A DNA stretch of 64,000 nucleotides, taken from IMG/VR virus record IMGVR_UViG_3300050821_007139, positions 1 through 64,000 of that record; one strand, written 5' to 3'. Source of the stretch: a virus. Positions 541-38,523 of this stretch are shown here, one piece after another. The notes under the pieces are model-generated. The model did not search any database, was not told where the DNA came from, and saw only the letters and a program-made list of their open reading frames with translations. Positions within the stretch are counted from its first letter, which is position 1; every line of letters starts with the position of its first letter. A program made the translations under genes and the position numbers.

Positions 541-1740
541 ATGGCAGACAATAGTTTACTACAGCCTAGCATTATTTCTAAAGAAACTTTGGTTATCTTG
601 GAAAACAATTTGGTTATGGCGGGTAAGGTTAACCGTCAGTTTGAGAATCAATTCGTTAAAATCGGCTCTAGTTTAACCATTCGGAAACCGAATAAATTTC
701 AGATTCGTACTGGTCCTGGATTGCAAATTCAGAATGTGACCGAGCCTAGTACTTCTATTACAATTTCTAATCAACGTGGTGTTGACTTTCAATTTAGTTC
801 TACCGACTTGACGCTTACTATTGAAGAATTTTCTGAGCGTTATTGCAAGCCTGCAGCGGCCACTATGGCTAATAAACTCGATCTAGATATTATGCAAAAT
901 TTTACCAGTATCTGGAACGTAGTAGGAACGCCTGGTGTTACGCCGGCGGCATATTCAAGTGTTGCTGCAGTCGGTCAGCGCATGGATGAAGGCGCTGTAC
1001 CTCAAGACGGGCGTTGCTTGGTTCTTGGGCCCAAAGCTTATTGGTCCATAGATAATGCTCTAATTACCCTTTACGTTCGTTCTGTTGCTGAGCCGGCTCT
1101 TAAAGGTTTTTTGGCTAATATTGCCAATTTTGAAATCTATGGTGATCAGAACGCACCGAGCCAAACTGTTGGCACCCTTGGTGGAACTCCAATTGTTAAT
1201 GGTTCGAATCAAACTGGTTCTAATCTTGTAACTAATGGTTGGACTGCTAATGTAACTGGAGTCCTTAACGTTGGCGATGTATTCACACTTGCTGGCGTTT
1301 TTGCAATTAATCCACAATCGCGGCAATCCACGGGAGCCTTAGCGCAGTTTGTTGTTACTGCTCCAGTTAATTCCGATGGTAGTGGTAATGCAACGATTCC
1401 AATCTCGCCCGCAATTACTCTAGCAGGTCCGCCGCCGGGGAATCCGTATCAGACTGTGACTGTTGCGCCGGCTAACCTAGCTCCTATTACAGTTGTAGGT
1501 CTTTCTGCGACTAATTATCCACAAAGTCTCGGCTTCGTTAAAGATACCTTTGGTCTCGTTACAGTTCCAATGGAGATTCCGGAAGGGGTGGATTTTGCAG
1601 CAAGGGAGACTTATAAGGGAATTAGTATGAGGATAATTAGAGCTTACGATATTAATAATGACGTTTTCCCTGCTCGTCTAGATATACTTTACGGCACTGC
1701 TACTTACTATCCTGAAATGGGTGTGAGATTGACGGGTTAA
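541..1740 (+). CDS. Major capsid protein, P22 coat-protein family
   Basis: This 399 aa protein should form the icosahedral shell. The N-terminal half matches the P22 gp5-like pattern: an N-terminal helix with many hydrophobic and Asn residues, then a RKPNKF segment and a conserved RYCKPAAATMANKLD helix near residues 100-115. A Thr/Gly-rich insertion of about 125 residues (roughly 205-330), containing NVGDVFTLAGV and a QSRQSTG motif, corresponds to the I-domain of P22-type coats. The C-terminal part (KGISMRIIRAYD, then DILYG) is also typical. The start is supported by CGGAAGG 8 nt upstream. The gene stands between a scaffold-like gene and small head genes, as expected. Confidence 0.92.
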   Translation: MADNSLLQPSIISKETLVILENNLVMAGKVNRQFENQFVKIGSSLTIRKPNKFQIRTGPGLQIQNVTEPSTSITISNQRGVDFQFSSTDLTLTIEEFSERYCKPAAATMANKLDLDIMQNFTSIWNVVGTPGVTPAAYSSVAAVGQRMDEGAVPQDGRCLVLGPKAYWSIDNALITLYVRSVAEPALKGFLANIANFEIYGDQNAPSQTVGTLGGTPIVNGSNQTGSNLVTNGWTANVTGVLNVGDVFTLAGVFAINPQSRQSTGALAQFVVTAPVNSDGSGNATIPISPAITLAGPPPGNPYQTVTVAPANLAPITVVGLSATNYPQSLGFVKDTFGLVTVPMEIPEGVDFAARETYKGISMRIIRAYDINNDVFPARLDILYGTATYYPEMGVRLTG

Positions 1741-2297: not shown

Positions 2298-3653
2298 ATG
2301 TCTGTCTCACATTCGGTAGTCACTTCTTGGCTCTATAGAGGACGCCATCAACAGATAGAGTCTTGCTTTAGAGCCAAGCTGCCGAATGTTAATGCTTGGC
2401 AAGGTTTGGCATCTCTTAGTGCAGGAAAAGGAAAATTTCTAGCTGCAGAATTTCTTTGTCGTAAAGCTTTAAGTATTGATCCGACTCATGAAGAATCTTT
2501 GATTGCATTAAGTGGTGTTCTTATTTATTTTAAGCAATATGATGAAGCAGAGGAAATTTTAACAAAGCTTATTGAAAGAGACTTGGAATCTAGATATCAA
2601 GTCGAGCAAAATCTTGGTTTTCTTATGCTTGAAATAGGGCAGACAAGCAAAGCTTTAGATTTACTTATTCCAGCATACGAGCATGCTCCTGAAGAAGCCA
2701 AAGCAGGTATAAAATATGGTATTGGGTATGCAAGACTAAAGAATGGTGATCTTCGCGCAGGATTTACAATAGTTCAAGAGCAATGGAATACCCCTAATAG
2801 TCATATTTGGGGCCTTGGAATACCAGAATGGAATGGTGATATAAGTGCTCTTAAGGGCGCACGTATCTTAGTACATCATTATCAGGGATATGGGGATACT
2901 ATCCAGTTCAGCCGCTTCATGAAACGGCTGTGTGACTATGGTGCTTATGTTATTGCAGCAGTCCCTAAACCTTTGCTTCGCATATTAGATTCGCCTGATC
3001 TTACTAATATTGTAGTCGATATAAACGAACCTTTGCCGCCCGTAGACTATCATGTATCAGTTTCATCTTTACCGGCGCTGCTTAAGATTGAATTAAATGA
3101 TCTTCCTAATATAGAATTTCCTTATCTACATAGCACTTATATTCCTGGTAATAAAGAGTCTTTCCCGTTACCACATAGAAATGGGAATCAAAATGTAGGT
3201 ATAATTTGGAAAGCTGATAAATACGGCAGTGGCCCAAGGCGCTCAATTCCTTTAGAATGTTTTCTTCCTTTGACGTTAATACCTCATGCTACAATTTATA
3301 GCCTACAATTTGAAGGGATTGAAGATATAGCTCGACTTGGAGTTTCGGATCTCATAACTGATTTGTCTTATTCCATCCGCGATTTTGCAGATCTTGCTGA
3401 GCGTATAGAAGAAATGGACATTATGGTGTGCGCCGATACCGGTCCGCTCCATCTTGTTGGCGCGTTAAATCGGCCTTGTATTGCACTATTATCTTTTGCC
3501 GCTGCGGATTGGCGTTGGTTGGAACATGATCGAAAAGATAATCCTTGGTATCCCTCTATGCAAGTAATTCGCCAATCGAAGTCCTGTAGTTGGGATGAGG
3601 TAATAGAACAAGTGATTCCTATTATTTCGAATTATTCCTATGATGCATATTGA
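2298..3653 (+). CDS. TPR-domain glycosyltransferase, GT9-like
   Basis: A 451 aa two-part protein. Residues about 30-165 form TPR-like helical pairs (KGKFLAAEFLCRKALSIDP; YDEAEEILTKLI). Residues about 190-450 resemble the C-terminal domain of TPR-linked family 9 glycosyltransferases: ILVHHYQGYGDTIQF, GIIWKA, a CADTGPLHLVGAL loop typical of nucleotide-sugar binding, and a WRWLEHDRKDNPWYPSM segment common in this family. It overlaps the following FkbM methyltransferase by 14 nt, so the two probably act together, perhaps glycosylating and then O-methylating a virion or surface glycan. The target is unknown. The position inside the head-to-tail gene block is unusual. Confidence 0.78.
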   Translation: MSVSHSVVTSWLYRGRHQQIESCFRAKLPNVNAWQGLASLSAGKGKFLAAEFLCRKALSIDPTHEESLIALSGVLIYFKQYDEAEEILTKLIERDLESRYQVEQNLGFLMLEIGQTSKALDLLIPAYEHAPEEAKAGIKYGIGYARLKNGDLRAGFTIVQEQWNTPNSHIWGLGIPEWNGDISALKGARILVHHYQGYGDTIQFSRFMKRLCDYGAYVIAAVPKPLLRILDSPDLTNIVVDINEPLPPVDYHVSVSSLPALLKIELNDLPNIEFPYLHSTYIPGNKESFPLPHRNGNQNVGIIWKADKYGSGPRRSIPLECFLPLTLIPHATIYSLQFEGIEDIARLGVSDLITDLSYSIRDFADLAERIEEMDIMVCADTGPLHLVGALNRPCIALLSFAAADWRWLEHDRKDNPWYPSMQVIRQSKSCSWDEVIEQVIPIISNYSYDAY

Positions 3654-4341
3654 TCCTATAAGTGGGTTACCTAGCCAATGTAGGTATGGAAATATAAGTT
3701 TTTCCCAGACTGGGGCTGATTTTTTGCTCTTGAATCTTTTTGAGCTGCTTGGAATAACAAATCCTTCTTACCTTGATGTTGGCGCATTCCATCCTACGGT
3801 TATAAGCAATACGGCTCTGCTTTACTCTCGCGGCTCACGTGGAGTTAATATAGAAGCAAACCCGGCGCTTATAGAGAATTTTTATAAAGCTCGGCCTGAA
3901 GATTTAAATATTAATATCGGTATAACACCGTGTGGTGGTGAGGTTGAATTTTATAGGATTGATTCATTTTCTGGCCGGAATACATTTGATCCCGAAGCGG
4001 CTCATGGATTTGTTCATGAGAACCCTAGCTTTCAAATTTCAGATACCTTGGTGCTTGAAACTATAACTTTAAATAAAGCTGTTGATACTTATTGTAATGG
4101 GATTTTTCCGGATTTGCTTTTGATAGATATTGAAGGGCTAGATTTGAATGTATTAGAGTCAACTGATTTTAGCTCAAGCCATCCTAAGGTTATTTGTGTA
4201 GAAACAGTTGATTTTAAAGGCGAGAGTCGTTACAGAGATTTTGCTTATCTACTGCTTCTCAAAGGCTTCGTACCATATTGTCGCCTTATTGCTGATGCAA
4301 TTTTTGTCTGGAACGAGAACGCAAAGGAGCTAAATAAATGA
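3640..4341 (+). CDS. FkbM-family SAM-dependent methyltransferase
   Basis: A 233 aa protein of the FkbM type, which usually O-methylates sugars or natural products. The SAM-binding start YLDVGAFHP near residues 43-51, the acidic loop VNIEANPALIENF, and LLLIDIEGLDLNVLES near residues 163-178 match the family (an FkbM hallmark is a DIEGxE/D-type motif). There is no signal peptide. The start at 3640 lies inside the preceding glycosyltransferase gene, and a second ATG follows at 3643. The next gene starts in an ATGA overlap, so this is one coupled unit. The acceptor is probably a glycan made by the partner glycosyltransferase (inferred). Confidence 0.82.
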   Translation: MMHIDPISGLPSQCRYGNISFSQTGADFLLLNLFELLGITNPSYLDVGAFHPTVISNTALLYSRGSRGVNIEANPALIENFYKARPEDLNINIGITPCGGEVEFYRIDSFSGRNTFDPEAAHGFVHENPSFQISDTLVLETITLNKAVDTYCNGIFPDLLLIDIEGLDLNVLESTDFSSSHPKVICVETVDFKGESRYRDFAYLLLLKGFVPYCRLIADAIFVWNENAKELNK

Positions 4342-5150
4342 CAGTCGAACCAGGTTATCCTGTGACTTTAGTTCATCCAAGACATGTTCCAGCTAAAATT
4401 GCAACTGGAAATGAAATCGGTGTACCGGAGAGATTTCCAGCTATAACTGTCAATGGCGCTTTACACGAGGCGCAGTATCGCTCGCAAGGCTATCTTCGTT
4501 ATGGCGAACCTATGCAACAAGAAGATTACCATGAATTTCCCAAAATCCTCCGGCACCCGGAATATAGGGAAGCAATTCCGTCTCGTGTAGAAGCTAAGAT
4601 TGAAGATGGGCGAATCACAGGAACATTTACAATTCCTGCAACGCCAGCTGAGTATCCAGATGTAACTGTTAATAATGAGGACGAAGAAACCTCTTGGCGA
4701 GATAAGGGATATTTGCCCGCTGGAGATTATAATAAAGATGCATTGGATTCTGTTCTTACAGGAACAATACATAAAGAAGCGTATGTAGCTACACAATACC
4801 CAATGTGGGTTGATGGGAAATTAATTGCGCATGATCCAGATGGCCTAGATTCAAGTCCTGATCCAAATTATCCTAAATTTGAAAATGGGACTATTGTTCC
4901 CGATCCTCGGTTTCCTCCTGTGCCTGATCCGAATAAATATCCAATGTGGGTACATAAAGATGGAATTCCAAGCGAAGAATCTGAATTAGCAGAAACACCC
5001 GAAAAAGAATTTAAAATAAGACAAAAGTGGGTAATTAAAGCTGAACAAGATTTGGAAGAGATAAATTTAGCATCTGATACTTCAGATCAAAATCCAGTAC
5101 CGATTTCTACCTCTTCTTCTAAATCAAAAACAAAACAAATCTCTATTTAG
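4338..5150 (+). CDS. Virion-region protein with YPMWV repeats, unknown
   Basis: A 270 aa acidic hydrophilic protein without membrane segments. Two copies of a YPMWV motif (about residues 154-158 and 212-216), each followed by a short polar loop, and several FPxI/YPxV-containing segments with PEEYxD-like spacing suggest a repeated small fold. The C-terminus is Ser/Lys-rich and probably disordered. The start is in an ATGA overlap with the FkbM gene. It precedes the gp4-like tail accessory genes, where head completion or connector proteins are expected. I recognise no family. Confidence 0.6.
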   Translation: MTVEPGYPVTLVHPRHVPAKIATGNEIGVPERFPAITVNGALHEAQYRSQGYLRYGEPMQQEDYHEFPKILRHPEYREAIPSRVEAKIEDGRITGTFTIPATPAEYPDVTVNNEDEETSWRDKGYLPAGDYNKDALDSVLTGTIHKEAYVATQYPMWVDGKLIAHDPDGLDSSPDPNYPKFENGTIVPDPRFPPVPDPNKYPMWVHKDGIPSEESELAETPEKEFKIRQKWVIKAEQDLEEINLASDTSDQNPVPISTSSSKSKTKQISI

Positions 5151-12426: not shown

Positions 12427-15400
12427 ATGGCTTATGCTGTAGGCGCTCCGATTGATGATCCTAGCACATTAGGGGTTAGTGCAAGCGCGCCTAGAGCTGA
12501 TGTGTCTTTGCCATCTAGACGTGAGCGTGATGCGCCAATATTAGTTCAATATATCCCAAGCGACGATTTATTAAAAACTACGGGCCTAAGTCCAGAACAG
12601 TATGACACTTATCGACATCATATGGCAAAACGTGAGGCCCCTAGTTATAGTAAACCTTTTGAAAAAACAGGAAGCAAAACTACTCTTGAAGTTGGCGGTC
12701 AATATCAGATGGGGCCGGAAGAAATTGCTTCAGCAGCTAAGCATTTAGGTATTGATGCCCCTTCTAAAGAAGAATTCTTGAAAAATCCCCATCTTCAAGA
12801 GCGTTTGTTTGATGCTTATACAGTGCAGCATGCTCAAGAGTTAATGAAAAATGAGACCTTTAAAGAAGCAGATCCAGCAAAACGAGCGGCAATCTTAGCT
12901 GGGGCACATTTAGGTGGGGTGCAGGGAGTCGAAGATTATTTAGCTGGCAAAAGTGATCCGAGCGACAAAAATAAAACTACCATAAGTAATTATGTTAATA
13001 GTACTGCTCGTGTAATGGGGGCGCCACTAATAGGTGTCTCTGATTGGACACCAAGCAATAATGCGATTGCGTCAGAACAAAGAAGATCTAATACTGATGT
13101 AGTTGATATGAGCCCAGAGCAGTTTCTTTCACTTCTCCCTCCTATACCTAAAGATGAACCTAGTTTAGCAAAACGAGATAATTTACAAAGGTCGCTAGCT
13201 TCAGGAGATCAAATTGAACAAATTCCTTCGCTTGAAGTAAAATCTAAAGGGGATGATCTTAAAGTCGTTGATCATGATGGGAGACATAGGGCACAAGCAG
13301 CTATTGAAGCCGGATTGGATACAATTCCTGTTTCAATTCGTGGTGCGGATGACGTTGCAGGTTTTAAAAATCTAGTTGGAAAAACAACTGTTCCAATTGA
13401 TTTTACTAAGGTTGCTTCAAAACTGGAGCAAGCACCAGTACAAGCACCGGTCCAGTTACAAGCAAGGCCAATCGGGCCGCAACAAGTTACACAAGCTCCA
13501 CAACAACCCTCTTCTCCAACTGTAGCTACTGCTCCTATTCCACCGGCCCCACAGACTCCATCTAAGCCTGATTTTTATCCACAAATCGTAGCAGGAATTA
13601 ATAAAGACATAATTAATCCTGCCTCTCAAGGCTATCGTGGGGTTGCTGTTCCGAATCCAACGACCGATATAACTGCCGGACAGCGAATTGCAAATGCTAA
13701 TGCGTCAAGTGCGGGTCAAGTAGGCTTACCGTCAAGAAATGTATTGGCTTCGGCTTTATCAGCAATTAACCCTATCGGTTCCGCTCAAGCTGCTGAAGGT
13801 AGTGTAGGTTTAAGTCCAAATCAACCATCGGCTTCTGCACCAATTCCTCCCGTTTCATCGCCACAAACATCTCCTTCTTCTGGCTTTGCTATTGGCGCCC
13901 CTATTGAATCTGGAAACTTTGCAGTTGGTGCTCCAGTCGGACCAAATCCGCGCCAATCTTATGTTCCAACTCCTGAAGATGTAATTCCGCCTATTGTAAA
14001 TGCTTTAAGTCCGATGTTAGGTACTGGAGTCATGGCAGGTATAGCTGGGCTCCGTAATCGCCCGATGAGTTTTGATGAATGGAAAGCTGCGCGAGACAAG
14101 GCTTTAGCTGAGACACAATTACCGGAGACTGAGACCGGGAGGAAGATTTCTAAATTCTTTGGCGCTCCGGGGCAGTTGTTAGGTTGGGCGGCTGAACAAG
14201 TTTTAGGAGATAAAACTAAATATCTAACTCCAGTTATGGATGTCTTAGCTCCAGCTTCCATTTTAGCTCCTGGAATTGGTAGTGTAGCTACGGCGCCTAT
14301 TAGACCTATACTTAATCGAGCTTTACAGACGCCTGAAATGGGTGCCGTCCGGGCCGCCAATGCAGCTTACAGAAGTGAGCTTCCGGCCGGTGGTGTAGCT
14401 AATACTGAAATTGCTAACCGTATGGCACAAGCACAAGGGGCTGGAATCCCACTAACTCCTAAAGATATGTTCTTGCCAGGTGAGGCGCAAAATGTACGGT
14501 TAGCTCATGCGTTAGAAAACTCTCCTGAAGCTCGTAAACAAATACGAGATGTATCAGAAGCTAGAACACGAGGTACAGAAGTTTCGCCGGCGCAAGAACG
14601 TGTAGGTGGAAGTCTAGAACGTGGCGATGCCCATGTTACTAATGCTTTCGGGTCAGGCTCAGCTAGAGATATAAGTGAAGCTTTAAATAAAAATCTTACT
14701 AAAAATACTAGCTTATTAGGACAAGCTAGGACATTATTAGATGAATCTAAAACTCAACTACAAGATCGTATAGATACATTAAAGAATATTAAAGTACCTT
14801 CAAAGCAAATCAAAGCTGATCCTGATGTAGCTAGATTGCGTACAATGCGTAATAGGCGTGAAGCTGAGGTTAAAGACCTTAATAAAAAGATTGATAATGA
14901 CAACGCTTCACTTGATGCAGTTAAAGAGGGACAAAAAATCTTTTCTCCAAATGTCCGTTCGGAGGATGTTGACAAATTTGTAGCTAAAGCGAAACCCGAA
15001 CAATTAGATGCGTATCGAATTAGCGTTGGTGATGCAGTTCGAGATCAGTTTAGGCGTGTACGAGAGCTTGGCACAGAAACCAGTAAGGTTAGTATTCCAC
15101 AAAATATGAAAAATAAACTTTCCTCAGCACTTGGTTCAATGCAAGTCGCTGAGGGTTTTATGCGTAAGATGGCACTAGAGGATCAGGTAACTGCCGGGGC
15201 TGAAAATGTGCTTACTGCTTTGGGAAATGAACCTGGGGCAGTAAGAAGAGCTGGGGCGCCATTCCGACGGGCGCTTGAATCTCTTGGTCATATCGGTATG
15301 AGCACTGCTATGGGACATGGTATTCATGGAGCTGGATATCAAGCTATTAGATTTGGCAGAAATGTTTTAGACTATATGGCCTATGGTGGTGGATTTATGG

Positions 15401-15585
15401 GCCGTAAGCGAGGAACCGAGATTAGTAAGCTTTATACAGATCCTAATGCAAATATTGCAACGTCAGGAAAGAATTTATTTCAATCGCCAGCCTTACCTGC
15501 GCGCCGCCAAAATATCTTAAACACGCTTCCGTATGGTCCAGCTGCTACTTATTCCGCCACGCAAAACTATGCGCCAAATCAATGA
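12427..15585 (+). CDS. Large composite ejection protein with transglycosylase-like and ParB-like domains
   Basis: 1052 aa, starting immediately after the previous stop. Residues about 55-180 resemble a lytic transglycosylase-type domain (YRHHMAKREAPSY, then GGQYQMGPEEIA and FLKNPHLQERLFDAY). Residues about 222-315 resemble a ParB/Srx-like nuclease domain with the signature VVDHDGRHRAQAA. A long Pro/Gln/Ala linker (about 335-510) leads to a hydrophobic and helical C-terminal half, including coiled-coil-like stretches near 740-830. It is the positional equivalent of P22 gp16. The enzyme domains could open the cell wall and protect or process DNA during entry (inferred). Confidence 0.72.
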   Translation: MAYAVGAPIDDPSTLGVSASAPRADVSLPSRRERDAPILVQYIPSDDLLKTTGLSPEQYDTYRHHMAKREAPSYSKPFEKTGSKTTLEVGGQYQMGPEEIASAAKHLGIDAPSKEEFLKNPHLQERLFDAYTVQHAQELMKNETFKEADPAKRAAILAGAHLGGVQGVEDYLAGKSDPSDKNKTTISNYVNSTARVMGAPLIGVSDWTPSNNAIASEQRRSNTDVVDMSPEQFLSLLPPIPKDEPSLAKRDNLQRSLASGDQIEQIPSLEVKSKGDDLKVVDHDGRHRAQAAIEAGLDTIPVSIRGADDVAGFKNLVGKTTVPIDFTKVASKLEQAPVQAPVQLQARPIGPQQVTQAPQQPSSPTVATAPIPPAPQTPSKPDFYPQIVAGINKDIINPASQGYRGVAVPNPTTDITAGQRIANANASSAGQVGLPSRNVLASALSAINPIGSAQAAEGSVGLSPNQPSASAPIPPVSSPQTSPSSGFAIGAPIESGNFAVGAPVGPNPRQSYVPTPEDVIPPIVNALSPMLGTGVMAGIAGLRNRPMSFDEWKAARDKALAETQLPETETGRKISKFFGAPGQLLGWAAEQVLGDKTKYLTPVMDVLAPASILAPGIGSVATAPIRPILNRALQTPEMGAVRAANAAYRSELPAGGVANTEIANRMAQAQGAGIPLTPKDMFLPGEAQNVRLAHALENSPEARKQIRDVSEARTRGTEVSPAQERVGGSLERGDAHVTNAFGSGSARDISEALNKNLTKNTSLLGQARTLLDESKTQLQDRIDTLKNIKVPSKQIKADPDVARLRTMRNRREAEVKDLNKKIDNDNASLDAVKEGQKIFSPNVRSEDVDKFVAKAKPEQLDAYRISVGDAVRDQFRRVRELGTETSKVSIPQNMKNKLSSALGSMQVAEGFMRKMALEDQVTAGAENVLTALGNEPGAVRRAGAPFRRALESLGHIGMSTAMGHGIHGAGYQAIRFGRNVLDYMAYGGGFMGRKRGTEISKLYTDPNANIATSGKNLFQSPALPARRQNILNTLPYGPAATYSATQNYAPNQ

Positions 15586-16016
15586 TACCAAAAATAATTA
15601 TCGTCCCTATCGAATATCAACGATTCACCACTATTGGTGATTGGTATGAAGATAAATATGGGAATTTTACAATTTCAATCTCCTATTTATATGATTGGAA
15701 ATATGAATTTTTGGTCTTGATTCACGAATTAACTGAATGGGCTATTTGTCAATCAATGGGAGTTAAAACTCAAGCTTGCGATGATTTTGACGGGCTTTGG
15801 GAAAGTGAGATTAAGAAAGGTATTCAAGATATTAATACCGAAGCAGGTTTTGATCGCCGGTGTCCGTACCGACGTGGGCACGTTTGGGGGGCACGAATGG
15901 AACGTTTATTCTGTTTCCTGCTCCGCGCCTCTTGGAAAGACTATTGTGAGTCGTGCGAACGTGCTATAAAGAATTATTCTAATTCTAAACAGAGTTCAAG
16001 TAATGCCTCTGTTTAA
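15582..16016 (+). CDS. Metallopeptidase-like protein, HELTE motif
   Basis: 144 aa. The helix FLVLIHELTEW places His48-Glu49 and Glu52 in an HExxE arrangement, as in zinc hydrolase-like proteins; a conserved tail EAGFDRRCPYRRGHVWGARM follows. Small phage proteins with this combination are common but I know of no proven activity. It begins in an ATGA overlap with the ejection protein and overlaps the next gene by 14 nt, so it belongs to a coupled cassette with the racemase and ATP-grasp genes. Confidence 0.65.
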   Translation: MIPKIIIVPIEYQRFTTIGDWYEDKYGNFTISISYLYDWKYEFLVLIHELTEWAICQSMGVKTQACDDFDGLWESEIKKGIQDINTEAGFDRRCPYRRGHVWGARMERLFCFLLRASWKDYCESCERAIKNYSNSKQSSSNASV

Positions 16017-16641
16017 AGCTACTCTAGGCATACTAGGCGGTATGGGCCTTAGAGCAACAAGTAATTTTCTTGATTGTCTGGTTAAAGAAATTACTGAAGT
16101 TGGCGTTACGGAAGATAGTGCGTTTCCTACCATAATTATGCTAAGTATTCCTTTACAAGAATGGGGAATTTTGGGATCGACAAATAAAGATCATGTTAGC
16201 GCACAAGTTAATAATGGCTTGAAATGGCTACGTGAAGCCGGCGCAGATTATATAGCTGTTCCTTGCAACACAGTTCACGAGTTTATAACCGATAAGCATG
16301 TGATTAACATTATTGATGAGACTTTAAAAGAATGTCGAGATAAAAATCTTGGCGTTCTTTGCTCCAATCAGACCAGAGAGTCAGGGTTATATGAAAGGAG
16401 TGGGTATAATATACAATATTACCCAAACCAATCTACAATCGATGGATTGATTGAAGCTGTTCAGCATGGGAAAAACCCTGATATTAGTTTGATGCTAAAT
16501 GCTGAGTTCTCTAATTGCTCTACTATCATCCTTGGTTGTACTGAGCTTTCGCTTTGTTCAAATATGAATCGTTGGGGGAATAGGACTATTTTAGATTCAA
16601 CTAAAATCTTGGCGAAGGCTTCTATAAAAGCCCTAATGTAA
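16003..16641 (+). CDS. Aspartate/glutamate racemase family protein
   Basis: 212 aa. The start LGILGGMG, the motif VPCNT with Cys88 and the motif LGCTEL with Cys179 are the two-cysteine catalytic signature of cofactor-independent Asp/Glu racemases, which interconvert L- and D-acidic amino acids. Length is close to the family norm. It overlaps the preceding peptidase-like gene by 14 nt and shares a TAATG junction with the ATP-grasp gene. The substrate (Asp, Glu or another compound such as hydantoin) cannot be decided by eye. Confidence 0.85.
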   Translation: MPLFKATLGILGGMGLRATSNFLDCLVKEITEVGVTEDSAFPTIIMLSIPLQEWGILGSTNKDHVSAQVNNGLKWLREAGADYIAVPCNTVHEFITDKHVINIIDETLKECRDKNLGVLCSNQTRESGLYERSGYNIQYYPNQSTIDGLIEAVQHGKNPDISLMLNAEFSNCSTIILGCTELSLCSNMNRWGNRTILDSTKILAKASIKALM

Positions 16642-18050
16642 TGAAATATATCTTCTTTACATTCTCTGGGCATTCATTACCGATAGCCAAGCGGTTGATT
16701 GATGAGGGCAATGAAGTCGAGGTCGGTCAAGTTTCAAGGCCCGAAAAGCTTAATGTCAAAGGCTGGCAGGCCCATAAAGAGACTCCAGAGGAACAACGCC
16801 GCCGGCTTTCACTTTATGATGGAATTATTGAAAAACAAGACGCCGATAAATTACTAAATAATCTTCGTTTTAACAAGGACAAAGAGGATATCTTTGTTGT
16901 TCTTGATCATAATAACCTTTGCGAATACGGTGAAAAATTAAATTCGATGGGATATATCGGTTTAATCCCGCTTCGTGAAGATTATACAATGGAAAAAGAA
17001 AGAACGGCGGCGAAGAATTTTGTTGAAAAAAATTATTCTTTACTTCAAGTGCCTGAATCAAAAGAATTTAAGAAAGCCCAAGATGGAATTGATTTAGTCG
17101 AAGATTCTGATGAGCTCTGGGTTCTTAAGAGTAATGGAAATATCGGTGATACCATAGTTCCACGAACTACTGATACCCAACTTAATCATATGGTAATTAT
17201 AGGCGCACTCAAGTGCGACTCAAAGGATTATGAAAAGGAGGGATATATACTTGAAAGGAAACTTAGATCGCCTATCGAATTTACTCCACAGCTTGCATTT
17301 TGGAACGGTGAGCCGATTTACTCACATGTGGAAATAGAATGCAAGCCAATTGGGGCCGGAGACACTGGCCCCGACGGTGGAGGAGCTTTAAATCTAGTCG
17401 TCAAAACCAACCTAGACGACGAAATAAACGCTATGTTTTTCCCCCCAATTATCTTCGAGATGGCAAAGAAACGCTCGGGCTTATTTATTTTCGACGCTGG
17501 GATACTTTATGACGAAGATGATTCAAGATTTTATTTTACTGAGTTCGCAGGGAATAGATGGGGTTGGGGTGGAATCTATTCGGAACTATCTATGGCAACT
17601 AATAAGAATAGAAATGCGACCGAATATTTTGAGCGCGTAAGTGCTGGAAAGAGTCCTCTTCATTATAAATATGGTGCTACGGTTAGTTTATATAATATCC
17701 TCCCTGATAAGAAATTTGCGTCGTTGGAGTGTGACTGTTTGCCGATTTATTGGCGAAGAGCGGCAGATGAATATTTATGGTTGTATCAGATAAGGAAAAA
17801 TGAAGAAGGGGTTATTGTAAATACAGGATGTTTTAAAGATTCAATTCTTGGTTACGCTAGTGGATGTGGAGATTCATTATCGAAATGTATCAGTTTAGCT
17901 TATAAAGTAATTGATAATTTTGCATTTAAAGAATTCCTTTTTAGACCTAAAGGTGATTTTTTATCTAAAGATTATCCAAGCTCAATTTTAAATCGTTTAG
18001 AGGCGATTAAAGAAATATTAGATAATATAGAAAAGAAAGAAGCCGCATAA
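16641..18050 (+). CDS. ATP-grasp ligase, PurD-like
   Basis: 469 aa. The layout resembles the ATP-grasp fold of phosphoribosylamine-glycine ligase: an N-terminal Rossmann-like start (FTFSGHSLPIAKRLIDEG), YTMEKERTAAKNF near residue 115, ILERKLRSPIEFTPQ near 205, a Gly-rich loop GPDGGGALNLV near 246 and FYFTEFAGNRWGWGG near 300 for Mg-ATP. Classical PurD needs residues I cannot confirm, so another carboxylate-amine ligase is equally possible. Coupled to a racemase, it might join a D-amino acid to an acceptor (inferred). Confidence 0.68.
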   Translation: MKYIFFTFSGHSLPIAKRLIDEGNEVEVGQVSRPEKLNVKGWQAHKETPEEQRRRLSLYDGIIEKQDADKLLNNLRFNKDKEDIFVVLDHNNLCEYGEKLNSMGYIGLIPLREDYTMEKERTAAKNFVEKNYSLLQVPESKEFKKAQDGIDLVEDSDELWVLKSNGNIGDTIVPRTTDTQLNHMVIIGALKCDSKDYEKEGYILERKLRSPIEFTPQLAFWNGEPIYSHVEIECKPIGAGDTGPDGGGALNLVVKTNLDDEINAMFFPPIIFEMAKKRSGLFIFDAGILYDEDDSRFYFTEFAGNRWGWGGIYSELSMATNKNRNATEYFERVSAGKSPLHYKYGATVSLYNILPDKKFASLECDCLPIYWRRAADEYLWLYQIRKNEEGVIVNTGCFKDSILGYASGCGDSLSKCISLAYKVIDNFAFKEFLFRPKGDFLSKDYPSSILNRLEAIKEILDNIEKKEAA

Positions 18051-18557
18051 ATGAAATTAAAAATAATTCTATTTCTTGTCTTTATGATATCGCTTTCTGC
18101 TCATGCTCAAGTTCCAGTATTTGTTGCGCCGGAGTTTATACAACATTTTTTTCTTACCAATGGTTCTGTTTGTGCTGGGTGTCAATTGTTTGTTTATCAA
18201 GCTGGAACAACTACAAAAACTCCGACTTATATTGATAGTACAGGGACTACAACTAATACAAATCCGGTTATTATGAATTCTCGCGGGGAGCCACAAGCAG
18301 GAGCACCGAATGGATCTATTGGTATTTGGCTTGCTGCAGGGCTTTATAAAGTCGTACTTGCTCCAGCTAATGATTCTGATCCTCCTACTAATCCCATTTG
18401 GACAATTGATGGTGTCTCAAGTTCGCTTATTCAACCTACCGCGCCAGTAAGCTCGGTATCGCCTTGTGTTCCGGGTGAATTTGCTCAGGACACAAGTTTC
18501 TTTTATAGCTGTGTAGCTATAAATACTTGGAAACGTGTCGCGTTAAATTCGTTTTAA
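18051..18557 (+). CDS. Tail collar-like protein with Sec signal peptide
   Basis: 168 aa. Residues 1-19 form a Sec signal peptide (lysine-rich start, hydrophobic core, AHAQ cleavage site). The mature part contains a domain typical of phage tail spike head-binding regions: a FVYQAGTTTKTPTYIDSTGT segment, NPVIMNSRGEP and a WTIDGV end. Phage virion proteins normally stay in the cytoplasm, so the signal peptide is odd. The gene follows the ATP-grasp stop directly and opens the exported block. Confidence 0.72.
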   Translation: MKLKIILFLVFMISLSAHAQVPVFVAPEFIQHFFLTNGSVCAGCQLFVYQAGTTTKTPTYIDSTGTTTNTNPVIMNSRGEPQAGAPNGSIGIWLAAGLYKVVLAPANDSDPPTNPIWTIDGVSSSLIQPTAPVSSVSPCVPGEFAQDTSFFYSCVAINTWKRVALNSF

Positions 18558-37407: not shown

Positions 37408-38523
37408 ATGAGCATAATTACAACACAATCTATGCATTCTTATCTTAAATACCCAAGCGCCGACAATATCTTAGTTGATATGCATGGGAATGATTTTCCT
37501 TGGCGAGTGCCCCAGCTTTGCGCTTCTTATAATTGGCCTACAAATGCGCCAGGTGGCGGAGTTATAGGTATAGTCGAATTAGGAGGCGCCTGGATTTGGA
37601 ATGATATGGGGAAGTTCTTCACCGGCTTAAATCAGCCGGTTCCTAAAATTGGCGATTTCTCTGTTGATGGAGCGATGAATAATGGAGATATCACAGACCC
37701 TGCTTCAGCAGAAGTAACGCTAGATATACAGATTGCTGGAGCATCTTATTTCGCAGCGACTGGAAAGCCAGCGATAATAAGGGTATATTGGGCCGGAAAT
37801 ACCGTCAATGCAATCTCGCAGTCTATCACGAGAGCAGCTGCTGACGGGTGTGATACGTGCTCGATATCTTGGGGCGCTGATGAGGCTAATTGGGGAAATG
37901 CTGCAGCAATGCAACTTGAAGCCGCTGCCGCTGCAGCAGTTGGAGCTGGGATGATAGTATTCGCCGCTGCCGGCGATAATGACTCTAGCGATGGCGGGCC
38001 GACTGCCGCTAATGTAGATCTTCCAGCATCGGCCCCACACGTTATTGGATGCGGAGGAACAACTAGACCGCATAGCCCTAGTGCGGTTAAACCTGAAATA
38101 GTATGGAATCAATCGCCCGGTAACGCTAATGGCGAAGGTACGGGCGGCGGATTTTCTACTATCTTTCCTGTCTCACCTTGGATGGCAGGGGCGCCGTCTG
38201 GCCCAGGCAGGATGGTCCCTGATTTAGCCGCTAATGCAGATCCAAATACTGGCTATCATGTAACTCTTGGCGGCCGAGATGTTATTTTTGGCGGCACGTC
38301 GGCAGTAGCGCCTCTATATGCCGGATTATTCGCCTCGTTCGGCCTCAAGCTTGGATTTGTCGCACCCAAACTTTGGGCGAACCAGCTAGCGTTTAATGAT
38401 ATTACCAAGGGCGACAATGGCCAGTTTCGGGCGCTTGTGGGGCCAGACGCTGTGACTGGCTTGGGATCGCCTCGAGGAGCTCGCCTATCTGATCTATTCG
38501 CGCTCCGTCTATATATGAGGTAA
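37408..38523 (+). CDS. Sedolisin-type (S53) serine peptidase
   Basis: 371 aa. The sedolisin catalytic set can be placed: Glu102 and Asp106 in SAEVTLDIQIAG, Asp190 in AAAGDNDSSDG for the oxyanion hole, and Ser298 in GGTSAVAPL. CSISWG and the C-terminal ITKGDNGQFRA/TGLGSPRG calcium-site pattern complete the fold. Sedolisins are acid-active endopeptidases, usually with a pro-domain and secretion signal; both are absent here, so it may act in the cytoplasm, in the virion or after lysis. A structural tail role is possible. The gene is 2 nt upstream of a holin-like gene. Confidence 0.85.
   Translation: MSIITTQSMHSYLKYPSADNILVDMHGNDFPWRVPQLCASYNWPTNAPGGGVIGIVELGGAWIWNDMGKFFTGLNQPVPKIGDFSVDGAMNNGDITDPASAEVTLDIQIAGASYFAATGKPAIIRVYWAGNTVNAISQSITRAAADGCDTCSISWGADEANWGNAAAMQLEAAAAAAVGAGMIVFAAAGDNDSSDGGPTAANVDLPASAPHVIGCGGTTRPHSPSAVKPEIVWNQSPGNANGEGTGGGFSTIFPVSPWMAGAPSGPGRMVPDLAANADPNTGYHVTLGGRDVIFGGTSAVAPLYAGLFASFGLKLGFVAPKLWANQLAFNDITKGDNGQFRALVGPDAVTGLGSPRGARLSDLFALRLYMR

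Follow-up and report, generated by a model that had tools for sequence, protein, structure and literature searches.

A recurring phage gene pair encoding an amino-acid racemase and a PurD-derived ATP-grasp ligase points to an undescribed pathway for making and attaching an amino acid

Phage gene clusters that combine an amidoligase, a glutamine amidotransferase and an ATP-grasp protein were reportedly described by Iyer et al. in 2009. In LUZ24-like phages, an amidoligase/ATP-grasp cluster forms part of an early-gene module (PMC3890496), and predicted peptide-bond-forming enzymes of phiEco32 are cited in a further paper (PMC10580990). A two-enzyme system is found in lactic acid bacteria and Enterococcus, where an aspartate racemase and an ATP-grasp D-Asp ligase acting in peptidoglycan synthesis are encoded in one operon, racD-aslA (PMC4155827). 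In the papers searched, all of them accessible without subscription, we found no description of a phage pathway that joins a racemase to a ligase.

Here we analysed a phage locus within a stretch of 64,000 nucleotides (the window), which is part of a virus record of 91,468 bases (IMGVR_UViG_3300050821_007139). Its racemase and ligase genes resemble RacD-AslA in their two-step logic of racemase and ATP-grasp ligase, and they lie adjacent or overlapping in four loci. However, the phage ligase is nearest to PurD in sequence and fold. Furthermore, the racemases of the cassette lack the arginine of the IPDR motif, the genes are phage-encoded, and the single named host is Gram-negative. With the phage amidoligase clusters the locus has in common phage-encoded enzymes that form peptide bonds and whose predicted targets are the cell wall or proteins. 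Those clusters employ other ligase families (the PF12224 amidoligase and a 291-residue ATP-grasp protein), and no racemase has been described in them; PF12224 did not match any of the three window proteins in Pfam searches. Relative to these systems, both the ligase family and the racemase partner are new.

An earlier note on this DNA had pointed to a two-cysteine racemase gene joined to a PurD-like ATP-grasp gene, with a further gene overlapping upstream, in the virion region. This arrangement holds. Both open reading frames are intact, the first matching PF01177 and the second related to PurD by family profile and by fold, and the upstream HELTE gene shares 14 nt with the racemase gene. The cassette sits in a run of virion genes that includes the coat protein, tail genes and the internal virion protein (Table 1). 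At the position equivalent to the latter, a prophage of Paraburkholderia carries a gene with an SLT transglycosylase domain. The virion genes of the window also enclose a TPR/GT9-type glycosyltransferase and an FkbM methyltransferase (2298-4341), and a subtilase-family (S8) protein is encoded at 37408-38523.

Table 1. Features of the window locus and of the three further loci with the racemase-ligase pair
Locus	Feature	Position	Strand	Remarks
Window	P22-type coat protein	541-1740		36-41% identity to best-matching coats in phage records
Window	Large internal virion protein	12427-15585	+	1052 aa; directly 5' of cassette; weak baseplate-lysozyme/endolysin PHROG matches
Window	HELTE protein	15582-16016	+	144 aa; small phage protein family
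Window	Amino-acid racemase	16003-16641	+	212 aa; PLP-independent Asp/Glu racemase superfamily PF01177; C88 (in PCNTVH) and C179 (in GCTEL) present; IPDR arginine motif absent
Window	TAATG, racemase stop overlapping ligase start	16637-16645	+	
Window	PurD-derived ATP-grasp ligase, new phage family	16641-18050	+	469 aa
Window	Tail-like protein, 3' of ligase	18051-18557	+	48% identity over 97 aa to protein downstream of Paraburkholderia cassette
Paraburkholderia silviterrae prophage, L046 (sequence identical to L037)	Cassette			Order racemase, PurD-like, HELTE
Methylococcaceae-binned contig, L045	Cassette			Racemase, PurD-like, then overlapping S51 peptidase gene
Methylococcaceae-binned contig, L045	S51 peptidase gene	3771-4394		1e-21
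156-kb viral contig, L066	Cassette			Racemase and PurD-like separated by four bases

In a Pfam profile search, the window racemase matched PF01177 at 4.6e-13 (49.9 bits, cut-off 31), and a PDB sequence search aligned it with solved aspartate racemases at 9e-15. Both catalytic cysteines are kept, and all four cassette racemases pass the PF01177 cut-off. The protein shares the family profile, the two cysteines and the overall alignment with the Asp/Glu racemases near TIGR00035 and CuyB, but it stays below the curated cut-offs of both the TIGR00035 aspartate racemases (70.1 bits versus 93.1) and the CuyB cysteate racemases (NF052483, 85 bits versus 190), and it lacks the IPDR arginine. In an alignment of 34 racemases this arginine was replaced in all four cassette proteins, and the IPDR motif was kept in a common freshwater phage group. 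From structural work on aspartate racemase, we take the arginine to be the contact to the acidic side-chain carboxylate. Since it is missing from the cassette racemases, aspartate is an unsafe guess for the substrate, and the specific proposal of D-Asp or D-Glu as product loses its footing.

Many freshwater viral contigs (L054, L098, L050, L069, L058, L095 and L076) carry an IPDR-type racemase with two neighbours, a sodium:dicarboxylate symporter and a solute-binding protein, whose families were confirmed in L054. This cluster of uptake and racemase genes recurs, and it differs from the cassette of racemase and PurD-like gene.

As a single sequence, the ligase gave no match in Pfam, PHROGs, NCBIfam, the PDB or the INPHARED phages, and automatic pattern searches starting from a two-sequence alignment returned nothing new. 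Relatives with 32-42% identity were reached once degenerate motifs had been made by hand and the alignment had been enlarged. All 11 PDB chains matched by a profile of 16 sequences were PurD (best 4.9e-14, 5vev), and GARS_C was weakly matched by 9 of the 16 family members; none of the family gave a PHROG match. The protein comprises an N-domain with an altered substrate loop, an ATP-grasp core and a GARS_C-like C-domain. AlphaFold2 modelling from the 16-sequence alignment yielded a pLDDT of 87.4 and a pTM of 0.89, after a poor earlier model from two sequences (pLDDT 46). When the model was compared with the PDB by Foldseek, GAR synthetases took the first 15 places, with the L-amino acid ligase RizA next, and no close viral structure appeared among the top matches (query TM <=0.41). 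Judged by its sequence profile and predicted fold, the protein is an ATP-grasp carboxylate-amine ligase homologue with PurD ancestry.

The PurD reaction couples glycine, via an acyl phosphate, to a sugar amine. With PurD (GARS) the phage family has the overall fold, the collinear ATP-grasp and C-domains and the E, K/R, E, E, R and G positions in common, and the residues invariant in all 19 members include E118, R121, T171, E213, E233, D285, E301, R306 and G308. In contrast to PurD, the family carries D285 throughout (another residue in E. coli PurD), the spacing of its E-x-N metal motif is altered, purine context is lacking, and the window protein is invisible to Pfam. The N-terminal GGREH loop, which we take to be the PurD substrate loop for the phosphate of phosphoribosylamine, is present in E. 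coli PurD and absent from 19 of 19 members. Position 163 is Lys in the ligase and Gln in five members from loci that lack a racemase (G003, G004, G005, G006 and G009), which calls for caution over ligase activity in that branch. At their N-termini, the ligases of L024, L030 and L040 are extended by a domain of some 110-140 residues. It looks HAD-like by eye (DFDG/DFHGT motifs) and gave no Pfam match, and we do not retain a HAD fusion.

The clear PurD ancestry could mean that a diverged, functional PurD boosts purine synthesis during infection and that the racemase is an unrelated neighbour. PurD has been reported as virus-enriched, and the marine auxiliary metabolic genes reported in the same paper (PMC11360552) include a virus-encoded phosphoribosylamine-glycine ligase. 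We nevertheless regard nucleotide supply as very improbable, given the loss of the loop in every member, the location in a virion cluster and the extra N-terminal domain of three members. Moreover, PurM, PurN, PurC, PurL and PurH were all absent from the phage records and loci searched; in a bacterial purine fragment used as control, the search recovered PurM, PurN and PurH. Thus, the ligase is PurD-like, as the earlier note had it, and a true PurD in purine context was rejected. An Enterococcus 'phage' match (H24) lies beside PurM, PurN, PurH and PurD genes and looks like bacterial chromosome, and the match in L020 proved to be a chance motif hit with no PurD-like gene.

The pair is not unique to the window phage. 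Racemase and PurD-like genes follow each other in the same order and on the same strand in four loci, with junctions of -4 to +4 bases. Compared to the window, the other three cassettes encode ligases of 38-42% and racemases of about 26-39% identity. Besides the pair, the Paraburkholderia prophage has neighbouring virion genes in common with the window locus (30-48% identity). The ligase tree places the Paraburkholderia protein as sister to that of the 156-kb contig (99/100). Two changes are needed on this tree to account for the four cassette ligases, and a single clade is compatible with the data (p 0.1). The racemase tree likewise joins the Paraburkholderia and 156-kb proteins as sisters (100/99), pairs the window with the Methylococcaceae contig (97/80) and places all four cassette racemases together with weak support (87/58). 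The pairings are concordant between the two trees.

Two independent accessory genes might also travel together on one mobile segment, the racemase serving a separate amino-acid metabolism. Such hitch-hiking fits the G+C content of the Paraburkholderia cassette, which at 50-55% departs from the 60% of its locus as acquired DNA would. It also fits some 58 other viral loci with related racemases, where no PurD-like neighbour was detected, and the 11 other phage PurD-like genes that have no racemase beside them. However, the pair stays tight, with an overlap or a gap of 4 nt, in four diverged loci, and in two of these (L045 and L066) the fetched DNA resembles the window locus in nothing but the pair. 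In addition, the cassette racemases group together and all miss the same arginine. We therefore consider hitch-hiking unlikely.

The 11 phage loci with a PurD-like gene and no adjacent racemase are G002-G006, G008, G009, L038, L039, L040 and L042. The search covered seven of these records from end to end and the flanks of the PurD-like gene in the other four, and it met no racemase. As these loci keep the ligase without a racemase beside it, we regard the ligase as the core and the racemase as a partner in some phages. In the racemase-less loci that were read through, the PurD-like gene follows internal virion proteins and precedes lysis or tail genes, and in two of them it adjoins an M23 peptidase gene. 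The family is rare in cells, where it was found in 1 of 399 Burkholderiaceae genomes and in 1 of 380 genomes of the phylum to which a Levyibacteriota genome (L047, G012) belongs. The latter has four PurD-like copies, two of them in tandem in an apparent exopolysaccharide locus. Besides its PurD-like gene, the G006 record encodes a pair of Amidoligase_2 and glutamine-amidotransferase-like proteins of the phiEco32/LUZ24 type (L032, 14001-16219). Further domains turned up in two PurD-like phages, a LAGLIDADG insert within a tail protein (L010, 11137-13155) and an intein/Hint-type domain within a neighbouring protein (L040, 7756-8451).

The HELTE protein had been called peptidase-like. Its motif is HExxE and not HExxH, and no Pfam peptidase matched, so that we abandon this label. 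Conserved features of the family are HExxE, FD, PY and H. An Fe_dep_repr_C assignment was unconvincing, with weak matches in 4 of 9 members and 8e-4 at best. The HELTE gene adjoins the PurD-like gene or the cassette in five phage loci (window, G008, L040, L042 and the Paraburkholderia prophage). Among the seven racemase-less records available whole, homologues were clear in five, G003 gave a weak match and G002 none, and in PurD-like phages the gene often lies distant from the ligase gene. Co-conservation, as far as the earlier note had implied it for all three genes, thus applies to racemase and ligase, found together in three further loci, and not to the full trio as a general rule.

The recurrence of the pair strengthens, in one respect, the earlier suggestion that the locus makes and attaches a D-amino acid. 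That logic keeps its racemase and its ATP-grasp ligase homologue, and it loses the trio as a generally conserved unit. We propose that racemase and PurD-derived ligase form a phage pathway in which a racemised amino acid is joined to an amine of an acceptor other than that of PurD, and we give this explanation a somewhat better than even chance. The racemase would invert the configuration of an amino acid at its alpha carbon. Using ATP, the ligase would activate the carboxylate of the product as an acyl phosphate and attach it to an amine, the acceptor being a molecule other than phosphoribosylamine. Four loci have the racemase fixed beside the ligase, and this is most simply read as a racemase that supplies the ligase's amino acid for a non-purine acceptor. 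Against this, most phage relatives of the ligase have no racemase nearby, which suggests that the ligase can in some cases do without a racemised substrate.

The position among virion and lysis genes suggests late expression and a target in the envelope or the virion. The cassette would probably be expressed together with the late virion genes, and the most likely acceptors would be components of the cell envelope (a peptidoglycan precursor or an amino-sugar glycan) or of the virion. Such a modification would serve superinfection exclusion, lysis control or particle protection. The attached amino acid would probably be a D-amino acid. The fuller proposal, that late in infection the PurD-derived ligase attaches a D-amino acid made by the racemase, possibly other than D-Asp or D-Glu, to the envelope of the host or to the virion, is tentative, and we would sooner expect it to fail in some part than to hold throughout. 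Against the proposed pathway counts the Gram-negative host Paraburkholderia; to our knowledge, Gram-negative peptidoglycan has no D-Asp side chain. No recognisable acceptor gene lies near the cassette.

A sharper version of this best explanation takes an amino sugar as the acceptor. The PurD-like enzyme would couple an amino acid to this sugar within a glycan of the host surface or of the virion, much as PurD couples glycine to a ribosylamine, and only some phages would have a racemase to provide a D-amino acid. The natural acceptor of PurD is a sugar amine. Several PurD-like phages carry sets of apparent sugar-transfer genes, with GT6 confirmed, the window has its GT9/TPR and FkbM genes, and the tandem Levyibacteriota copies lie in the apparent exopolysaccharide locus. 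But the loop that was lost is the one that binds the phosphoribosyl group, and a sugar site need not persist without it. Furthermore, glycosyltransferases are common in phages, and none adjoins the ligase gene. We hold an amino-sugar acceptor to be possible and rather doubtful.

Taken with its recurrence, the pair suggests that phages have a so far undescribed pathway by which an amino acid is made and attached. A PurD-derived family of phage enzymes is now defined which is absent from PHROGs and whose window member is missed by single-sequence searches, and its homologues may be miscounted as purine auxiliary genes in virus surveys. In four loci this ligase comes with a racemase of its own. 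Should the biochemistry be borne out, phages would possess a means of producing and installing non-standard amino acids in the course of infection.
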